64,000 nucleotides of DNA, from the NCBI GenBank assembly GCA_015654835.1, contig JAATGG010000205.1, forward strand, positions 1-64,000, read 5' to 3'. Source of the DNA: Terriglobales bacterium (GTDB lineage: Bacteria > Acidobacteriota > Terriglobia > Terriglobales > Acidobacteriaceae). The notes under the pieces are model-generated. The model was not told where the DNA came from. It did not search any database and worked only from the letters and a program-made list of their open reading frames with translations. Below, piece after piece: positions 14,207 to 57,804 of the stretch. Position numbers and translations under genes: made by a program. How positions within the stretch are numbered: position 1 is the first letter of the stretch; the number at the start of each line of letters is the position of its first letter.

Positions 14207-14378
14207 GTCACCTCGATCAAAATCGGGTACTCATCTGGACAAGGCTGTGATTGAAATGTGTTATTAATGTAGGCGAATAGACAGCGAACGTCAAGGTTGG
14301 CTTCATCCAGTTCGACCCCGCTGGACTCTGCGAGAGTTCGATAATGGTTGGACCTCCAGAGAAAGAGAGTTGCCTCCC

Positions 14379-23404: not shown

Positions 23405-24946
23405 TTAGTGGATCATGTTGATCGTTTCCTGGGTCACGGTATCGAAGGTGGTGACTGCCTTGGAGTTGGCCTCAAAGGCGCGCTGGGCGACGATCAGGTT
23501 GGAAAATTCCTGTGAGATGTTGACGTTGGAGGCTTCTGTCTGGCCGCCCTCAACCAAACCGCGGCCCCCTGTGCCCGCCACACCTGTGGAAGCATTGCCG
23601 GAAGCATTGGTCGCCTTATATTCGCTCGATCCCATGTCTTGCAGGCCCTGCTCGTTGTTCACGGTGGCAACCGCCAACTGGCCGATGGCCTGGGTCTGGC
23701 CGTTGGAGTAGCTGGCCAGGATGGTGCCGTCGGAACCGATGGTGAAGCTGTTGTTGTATTCGCCAGCCGGGAATCCATTCTGATCCTGGCCGGATTGGGC
23801 GGATGCGGCTACCGTCTGGCTGACGGTGCTGGAGCCGTTCGCGCCGTATAGATTCCAGGTCAGGTTCATCGGCGCCGCGCCATCGGAGAGGCCCGTGAAG
23901 CTGATGCCGCTCAAATTGCCTGAGGGGCTAACCAAATTGCCTGTTGAATCGAAGGTCAGCGTGCCCGAGGCATTGCTTGTGGACGCTGCATCCTGAATCA
24001 CGGTGCCGCTGGTCGCCGTAGCACCGGTAATCGTCAAAACGCCGCCTACAGAGGTGACTGTTACTGCGTTCGCACCGGTTGTTGCAATGCCGGCAGCCGA
24101 CAAGGCGCTATTCAGGGCCGTGGCATAGTTGTCTAGGCTCTCCCCTGGGGTGAAGGAGGGGACAGCCGTCGTCGCTGTGCCTCCGGCCGTTGCCGGCCCG
24201 GTGATGACGAGACTCGAACTTTTATCGACCGATCCGCCGGTGCCAAAGTCATAACTGACGGTGCTGGGTACGGTGCCGGCCGCGGACATGATGGGGGAGA
24301 CGGTTTGCGGCAGGGTGATGTTATAGCTCCACGTATTCGCCGCCGTCTTGCTGTAGGTGATGGTGGCATCGTAGGAGTTGCCCAGCGAGTCATAGACTTT
24401 AATGGTGCTCTGCGGGGAAGTCGCGCCGATTGCGTCGTTGGAGTTGAGGTTTTGCGTCGCGCTAAAAGTCGTAGTGGCGGATGGCATCATCACCTGTCCT
24501 GTAGGAAGGACGATGTCAGACAAGGTTCCGCTGGTGTTGATGACTCCATTGACACCCGGGTACCCCATCACAGCCTGCCCGTTGGCGCTTTGCAGGACAC
24601 CGCTGCTGCTCACCGTAAAGTTGCCGTTGCGGGTCAGGAATTCCTGTCCGCCGCCGCCATCCAATACAAAGAAGCCTGTTCCGTTGAGAGCCGCGTCAGA
24701 GTATACGCCGGCGACGATACTGCCGTTGGTGAAGTCCGTGGTGTTGGAGGCAACCTGCACGCCCGTGCCTACCTGAATAGGATCGCCCGATCCGGAGGAA
24801 CCCAACTCCTGCGCAAGCAGATCGCTGAAGGTCGTCGTCTGCGCCTTGTAGCCAGTGGTATTCATGTTGGACAGGTTGTTGGCGATGGTATTCAGCGCCG
24901 TCGAGTCGGCGTTAAGACCACTCAGGGGAATGTCGAAACTTGGCAT
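23405..24946 (-). CDS. flgE: Flagellar hook protein FlgE
   Basis: MPSFDIPLSGLNADSTALNTIANNLSNMNTTGYKAQTTTFSDLL; C-terminal NISQEFSNLIVAQRAFEANSKAVTTFD. Confidence 0.95.
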   Translation of the reverse strand: MPSFDIPLSGLNADSTALNTIANNLSNMNTTGYKAQTTTFSDLLAQELGSSGSGDPIQVGTGVQVASNTTDFTNGSIVAGVYSDAALNGTGFFVLDGGGGQEFLTRNGNFTVSSSGVLQSANGQAVMGYPGVNGVINTSGTLSDIVLPTGQVMMPSATTTFSATQNLNSNDAIGATSPQSTIKVYDSLGNSYDATITYSKTAANTWSYNITLPQTVSPIMSAAGTVPSTVSYDFGTGGSVDKSSSLVITGPATAGGTATTAVPSFTPGESLDNYATALNSALSAAGIATTGANAVTVTSVGGVLTITGATATSGTVIQDAASTSNASGTLTFDSTGNLVSPSGNLSGISFTGLSDGAAPMNLTWNLYGANGSSTVSQTVAASAQSGQDQNGFPAGEYNNSFTIGSDGTILASYSNGQTQAIGQLAVATVNNEQGLQDMGSSEYKATNASGNASTGVAGTGGRGLVEGGQTEASNVNISQEFSNLIVAQRAFEANSKAVTTFDTVTQETINMIH

Positions 24947-37243: not shown

Positions 37244-37539
37244 GGCAGCCTTCCCTTTTTGGCAGCGTTTCTGAATCCGTAGCGCTTGCCTGGTGTTTCC
37301 CGGTGGCCCGCTTAGCGTGTCCTAACCTCGCGGCCTTCTTTACCTTCCCTCATGCAGAAGTGGAACTCAAGATGGAAAAGCACAAAGAATCCGTACCAAT
37401 TCCGGAATCGGAATGAGGAATTTGAATGTTCCAAAACGGGTCAGAATTGACGGAGGCCAATGACCAGGGTCAGTCTTCGCGGCTAAGAGAGCAGATTAAG
37501 AGAAAAATGAGGAAGAAGTAGAAAAAGAGCTGGCGTGGT

Positions 37540-37555
37540 TCGCTTTTTATTCGCT
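37540..37555. promoter_or_regulatory. Candidate LexA operator TCGCTTTTTATTCGCT overlapping the lexA promoter
   Basis: Identical 16-mer occurs upstream of the DinB-family gene at 57235-57250; abuts and overlaps by one base TATAAT at 37555-37560. Confidence 0.6.
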
Positions 37556-37566
37556 ATAATGCGCGC

Positions 37567-38172
37567 ATGGCTGTGACTCGAAGGCAAAAAGAGGTTCTCG
37601 ATTTCTTGGAATCGTTTGTGACTCGCAACGGCTATTCCCCGTCGTTCGAGGAGATCGCGCGGGGCATGGGGTTGAAGAGCCTGGCGACGGTGCACAAGCA
37701 CATCACAAACCTGGAAAAGAAGGGTCTGCTGGACCGGGTGCATAACCGCAGCCGTTCGATCGACGTGCTGCCGCCGGGCAGCCGGACGCGGAGCAGCGAC
37801 AGGCTGCCGCTGGCCGGGCGGATTGCGGCGGGGCTGCCGGTCGAGACGACGGAGACGCCGGAGAGTATTTCGCTGCACGATGTGGTCGGCAACCGCGACG
37901 TTTTCGCGCTGGAAGTACGGGGCGATTCGATGCGCGACGAGCACATTATCAGCGGGGATTATGTGCTGGTGGAGCGAACCCGGACGGCACGCCAGGGCGA
38001 AATTGTGGTGGCGCTGGTGCATGGCGCGGAGACGACGTTGAAGAGGTTTTATTCCGAGGGCAGCGTGGTACGGCTGCAGCCGGCAAATATCGAAATGGAA
38101 CCGATCTATATACCGGCTGCTCAGGTAGCGATTCAGGGCCGGGTGCTGGGCGTGCTGCGTAAATACCGATAG
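37567..38172 (+). CDS. lexA: LexA repressor
   Basis: TRRQKEVLDFLESFVTRNGYSPSFEEIARGMGLKSLATVHKHITNLEKKGLL; GDSMRDEHIISGDYVLV. Confidence 0.96.
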   Translation: MAVTRRQKEVLDFLESFVTRNGYSPSFEEIARGMGLKSLATVHKHITNLEKKGLLDRVHNRSRSIDVLPPGSRTRSSDRLPLAGRIAAGLPVETTETPESISLHDVVGNRDVFALEVRGDSMRDEHIISGDYVLVERTRTARQGEIVVALVHGAETTLKRFYSEGSVVRLQPANIEMEPIYIPAAQVAIQGRVLGVLRKYR

Positions 38173-57219: not shown

Positions 57220-57234
57220 GCTTCTGCATGATTA

Positions 57235-57250
57235 TCGCTTTTTATTCGCT
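57235..57250. promoter_or_regulatory. Candidate LexA operator TCGCTTTTTATTCGCT upstream of DinB-family gene
   Basis: 16/16 identity with the motif overlapping the lexA promoter. Confidence 0.6.
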
Positions 57251-57300: not shown

Positions 57301-57804
57301 ATGGATATCCAAAAAGAACTGGTTGCCGAATATGAGAGCGAGACTGCGAAGAGCCGCAAGATGCTGGAGGCGCTTCCGGCCGATGTCGATTTCACCTGGA
57401 AGCCCCATGCGAAGTCGATGACTTTGGGCCGCCTGGTGACCCATCTGGCGGAAACGGCCGGTAACTGGGCGCTCCATACGCTGGTAAAAGACAAGATGGA
57501 GTGGACTCCCGCCGACAAGCCCAATCCCGCGCCTCACATCGACAAAGCGGCGTTGCTGGCGCAGTTCGACAAGCAGGTTGCCGAAGTAAAAGCCGCCCTG
57601 GCCAAGTTGCCGCTTGAGAAGTGGGACGCAAACTGGAAGTTTGTGGCCGGCGATCAGGTGTGGATCGATGACTCGAAATACAGCGTCTGGCGGAACTGGG
57701 TGATCAATCACCTTGTCCATCACCGCGCACAGGTTGGCGTCTACCTGCGCATCCTCGGACATCCGATTCCGGGCTGCTATGGTCCTTCGGCGGACGAGAT
57801 GTGA
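57301..57804 (+). CDS. DinB-family protein
   Basis: YESETAKSRKMLEALPADVDFTWKPHAKSMTLGRLVTHLAE...NWVINHLVHHRAQVGVYLRILGHPIPGCYGPSADE. Confidence 0.92.
   Translation: MDIQKELVAEYESETAKSRKMLEALPADVDFTWKPHAKSMTLGRLVTHLAETAGNWALHTLVKDKMEWTPADKPNPAPHIDKAALLAQFDKQVAEVKAALAKLPLEKWDANWKFVAGDQVWIDDSKYSVWRNWVINHLVHHRAQVGVYLRILGHPIPGCYGPSADEM

Follow-up and report, generated by a model that had tools for sequence, protein, structure and literature searches.

The direct repeat TTCGC-N6-TTCGC is very probably the SOS operator of the acidobacterial lineage studied here, and its predicted ligand is LexA. Two copies of the element lie in the window, by which we mean the whole 64,000-nucleotide stretch of DNA that was analyzed, one in the promoter of lexA and the other upstream of a gene of the DinB superfamily. 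The sequences show directly the element with its position and conservation, its repeated presence at repair genes, and a LexA that is intact; binding by LexA, repression and induction by DNA damage are deduced from them. What is new is the phylum-wide picture, in which an 11-bp direct repeat is kept and the half-site switches between TTCGC and TTCAC together with one residue of the recognition helix. For a soil phylum that is large but has received little study, the SOS operator is defined well enough to predict a damage regulon.

The operator and promoter of lexA

The upstream region of lexA in the window was compared with those of the 79 Acidobacteriaceae loci for which an upstream region was available. 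A perfect TTCGC-N6-TTCGC with an 11-bp period was present in 78 of these 80 regions. At the 76 promoter-proximal sites, the box adjoins the -10 box, all ten half-site columns are invariant and the spacer is T-rich, while the flanks are far less conserved than the half-sites. Further upstream, only a stretch rich in A and a weak -35 box stand out from near-random sequence. The -10 box is followed by the ATG after 6 nt in the window as well as in 70 of the 76 orthologs, and from this position of the start the lexA mRNA is predicted to be leaderless. Terracidiphilus gabretensis (L030) retains both box and -10 box, with the start codon located about 70 nt downstream.

Table 1. Position and assignment of the features discussed in the text (window coordinates).
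Feature	Coordinates	Strand	Basis or remark
Possible further box, TTCGCTGTCTATTCGC	14273..14288	-	Perfect half-sites; an integrase-like gene on one side, a divergent HTH-like ORF on the other
Putative LexA operator at lexA (TTCGC-TTTTTA-TTCGC; half-sites repeated directly at a period of 11 bp)	37539..37554	+	Ortholog conservation
-10 box TATAAT, adjoining the operator	37555..37560	+	TATAAT in 63/76 orthologs
lexA, 201 aa, HTH and S24 peptidase domain, recognition helix SLATVHKH	37567..38172	+	TIGR00498, PF01726, PF00717
Second putative LexA operator, ATCGC-TTTTTA-TTCGC	57234..57249	+	Position kept in same-genus orthologs
DinB-superfamily (PF05163) gene, 167 aa, putatively SOS-regulated	57301..57804	+	PF05163, E=1e-13

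The first-pass annotation had described a 16-mer, TCGCTTTTTATTCGCT, that overlaps the TATAAT of lexA by one base and contains the repeat TCGCT-N6-TCGCT. The overlap is as described and the repeat is indeed direct, but its unit is better written as TTCGC-N6-TTCGC.

In three lexA promoters (L013, L037 and L051), the proximal site is missing its first direct half-site. These promoters are near-identical to each other, and the half-site is either lost or inverted (AGCGA-N6-TTCGCT); in L037, a regular box was found about 90 bp further upstream. A genome-wide search for the inverted half-site seen in L013 and L051 gave no excess worth claiming.

The protein encoded downstream of the box scores 194 bits against the LexA equivalog model TIGR00498 (cut-off 111), and the two Pfam domains are matched as well. 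It aligns over its full length with LexA proteins of solved structure, and its segments RIAAGLP, GDSM and LKRF align with the Ala-Gly, Ser and Lys motifs of the latter. Judged by these alignments, the LexA of the window is intact and retains the residues for self-cleavage.

In a LexA dimer, each of the two winged-helix domains would contact one TTCGC half-site and, with a single helical turn separating the half-sites, both domains would lie on the same face of the DNA. Because the operator adjoins the -10 box of lexA, bound LexA would block RNA polymerase and thus repress its own gene. Upon DNA damage, RecA filaments would stimulate self-cleavage of LexA at the Ala-Gly bond, which would relieve the repression of lexA, recA, uvrB, the Y-family polymerase gene, the DinB-fold gene and others.

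The second site and the DinB-fold gene

The second copy of the 16-mer (57235-57250) is separated by 50 bases from the ATG of the DinB-fold gene. Within the genus, 16 orthologs had a readable start, and every one of them carries a box 65 to 70 bp ahead of the ATG (around -67); 15 of these boxes are within one mismatch, one has two (L151), and the flanking sequences diverge. The usual form at this gene within the genus is ATCGC-TTTTT-N-TTCGC. No box precedes the orthologs that belong to another family of the order.

The DinB fold family owes its name to a damage-inducible Bacillus gene. The designation of the gene as DinB-family holds with respect to the PF05163 fold and is accompanied by the conserved box. 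The gene does not, however, encode DNA polymerase IV, a candidate that was rejected, as the protein matches PF05163 and PF12867 and not the IMS family (PF00817). The canonical Pol IV paralogs themselves carry no box, save for one distal match in ten.

Occurrence of the element in the window and the genome

A genome-wide search of the 4.71 Mb genome containing the window revealed no exact copy of the 16-mer beyond the two that had been noted, at 37540-37555 and 57235-57250, so the full motif is not one that recurs at random. With up to three mismatches allowed, five matches were found in the window compared to 0.5 expected from shuffled sequences, and none of the shuffles reached five. The bare half-site pattern behaves differently: TTCGC-N6-TTCGC with one mismatch occurs nine times in the window versus 10.6 expected, that is at chance density, and genome-wide the counts of 81/83 versus 69/68 for a reversed-pattern control show no clear excess. 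About 8% of random 200-bp stretches contain a box within one mismatch when both strands of this upwardly biased pool are considered. The evidence for the operator therefore lies in position and conservation and not in the rarity of the half-sites, and isolated matches to the bare pattern are no proof of a site.

The chance density of the half-sites in the window is also what could suggest that the two identical 16-mers are a mere coincidence of T-rich sequence. Both sites, however, are kept in place in orthologs whose flanks diverge, and the 16-mer is confined genome-wide to these two loci. The ortholog comparisons rule out a chance origin for both sites, and we regard coincidence as next to impossible.

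Matches to degenerate patterns within genes or ahead of unrelated genes were treated as chance, and the site at 23611 was rejected as it falls within a long ORF. A candidate site upstream of dnaB (C151:1909) lies 107 bp before the start and has one degenerate half-site. The box in the window at 14273-14288 is located 65 bp upstream of an integrase-like ORF (14206-12992, PF00589); it possibly marks a mobile element under SOS control, or may be due to chance. One relative, G008, contains about 118 pattern matches, many of which belong to repeated copies of ATCCCTCCCCCTTCGCT and to TTCGCC-type sites arranged as inverted pairs at a distance of about 67 bp. These repeats are a family that is either unrelated to the box or mimics it.

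Boxes at other SOS genes

Conserved sites, often in degenerate form, were found upstream of recA, uvrB, imuA, the SRAP genes and the gene of a UmuC-like polymerase, which shows that the motif does recur at SOS promoters. For recA, where the motif had been expected, a box is present and conserved in the genus of the window, but it is degenerate and not the exact 16-mer, reading TTCTCCAAATCTTCGCC in the genome of the window itself. Within the genus, the recA box follows TTCnC-N6-TTCGC with one degenerate half-site and is located upstream of the core promoter, 31 to 33 bp ahead of the -10 box in most members. Nine of its ten half-site columns carry 1.7 to 2.0 bits and one carries 0.5, whereas most flanking columns stay under 0.7. 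Several members of another family of the order have TTCGCTTTTTCTTCGCC upstream of recA, and one has TTCGCTAAAGTTTCGCT.

The uvrB gene carries TTCGCCAGACATTCGCT in the genome of the window, and its counterparts in G004 and G149 have boxes that resemble it. At the UmuC-like Y-family polymerase, nearly all relatives have a box within one mismatch, which lies on the opposite strand in the genus of the window and on the strand of the gene in the other family. Boxes were further observed 9 to 15 bp ahead of the start of imuA in G009 and G013 and at SRAP (SOS-associated peptidase family) genes in the genomes of two relatives. The sequence TTCGCCATATATTCGCC (L268, 1461-1477) overlaps the start codon of a radical SAM gene resembling PA0069/Rv2578c, both in the genome of the window and in relatives, and the gene is a possible further SOS target.

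The element thus has the features by which a direct-repeat LexA operator is recognized, namely an 11-bp period, a place in the lexA promoter and recurrence at recA, uvrB, translesion polymerase genes and imuA. Its fixed spacing to a strong TATAAT at lexA would also suit a promoter motif for an alternative sigma factor, conserved through transcription initiation with no repressor involved. At recA, however, it sits well upstream of the -10 box in most members of the genus, at the DinB-fold gene it lies about 67 bp before the ATG, at the Y-family polymerase of the window's genus it is on the opposite strand, and the genes that carry it are the SOS set. Variation of this kind in location and strand agrees with an operator, and we consider a sigma factor motif highly improbable.

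Comparison with known LexA boxes

Acidobacterium capsulatum belongs to the same family of bacteria as the source organism. A study from 2006 reportedly gave its LexA box as GTTC-N7-GTTC, the alphaproteobacterial form, and is said to have found recA damage-inducible but without a box. Compared to that reported box, the conserved core here extends to TTCGC, and recA of the relatives analyzed here does carry a conserved, degenerate box. The strict form GTTC-N7-GTTC describes few of the sites: G is present at both places in only 3 of 76 lexA sites, and the lexA site of the window reads GTTC-N7-ATTC. TTCGC-N6-TTCGC is therefore the better description.

The recognition helix of alphaproteobacterial LexA differs from the acidobacterial one found here. 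The alphaproteobacterial box, GTTC-N7-GTTC (PMC3323433), shares with the present element the direct repeat, the 11-bp period and the TTC core, whereas here the first G is not conserved and the GC following TTC is. The A. capsulatum box was published by Mazon et al. (2006, Microbiology 152:1109; cited in PMC7739468 and PMC3323433), and PMC7739468 names it among the LexA motifs that are direct repeats; the two cases share the phylum and a direct-repeat LexA operator. The proposal of the first-pass annotation that the element is the SOS operator of this lineage is supported by the conserved sites at SOS genes, but the type of box is not wholly new: a direct-repeat LexA site is already known from one relative, and TTCGC-N6-TTCGC is a refined description. 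The LexA box of the Balneolaeota, TTACACATATTTTWTACATA (PMC7739468), is likewise a direct-repeat operator from another phylum with other, TTACA-like half-sites, and it is resembled by TTACAC-N5-TTACAC in some families of the Acidobacteriota (L318, L218). The boxes of Escherichia coli and Bacillus involve the same protein family and target genes but are inverted (palindromic) repeats in contrast to the direct repeats found here. Full-text searches of papers outside subscription turned up none that describes an acidobacterial LexA motif at the level of the phylum.

Half-site and recognition helix across the Acidobacteriota

The 110 bp upstream of 88 LexA-family genes sampled across the Acidobacteriota were scanned for direct repeats of periods 7 to 17 with no motif given. 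Perfect 6-mer repeats were found 26 times at period 11, compared to one to five times at each of the other periods. The half-sites in the phylum are TTCGC, TTCAC, TACGC and TACAC, with a TTCGA-like form in one family.

From 108 promoters with a clean site, 100 distinct rows were obtained in which the two half-sites agree. The third residue of the helix motif SLATVHKH is Asn in 29 rows, and in all of these the fourth base of the half-site is A. Among the 71 rows with another residue it is G in 70, the exception being L214 (Ser-Gly). The proposed code would thus read TTCAC or TACAC for Asn and TTCGC or TACGC for Ala or Gly.

This association bears on the question of which protein binds the element. 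In some bacteria, repair genes are controlled by regulators other than LexA, and a different damage-responsive regulator might on this general ground occupy the box. Yet the element is strongest at lexA itself, and its half-site base tracks the recognition helix of LexA in 99 of 100 rows across the phylum, which leaves another regulator with very little likelihood and favors LexA.

On a tree built without the columns of the recognition helix, we counted four residue changes and three base changes; three of four independent pairs were concordant and none opposed (p=0.25), and a smaller first set gave two of three concordant pairs. With only three to four independent switches, the link between residue and base cannot reach significance once corrected for descent, so that it appears strong as an association and is unproven as coevolution. 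We nevertheless lean toward the view that the acidobacterial operator has kept its architecture while its half-site was rewritten several times, the base at position 4 probably being set by the residue that corresponds to Ala40 of the LexA studied here. If this is true, all operators of the regulon had to switch together with LexA, and the phylum would offer a natural series for the change of a regulon code. The phylum-wide match of one LexA residue to one operator base is a case in which joint change of a regulator and its many sites can be put to a direct test.

Six further loci (L336, L337, L344, L345, L349 and L355) encode a second LexA-like family, characterized by TPPGETR... and an AVESARxH-type helix, and their promoters contain a palindromic CAGACA-N2-TGTCTG-like element in place of the direct repeat.
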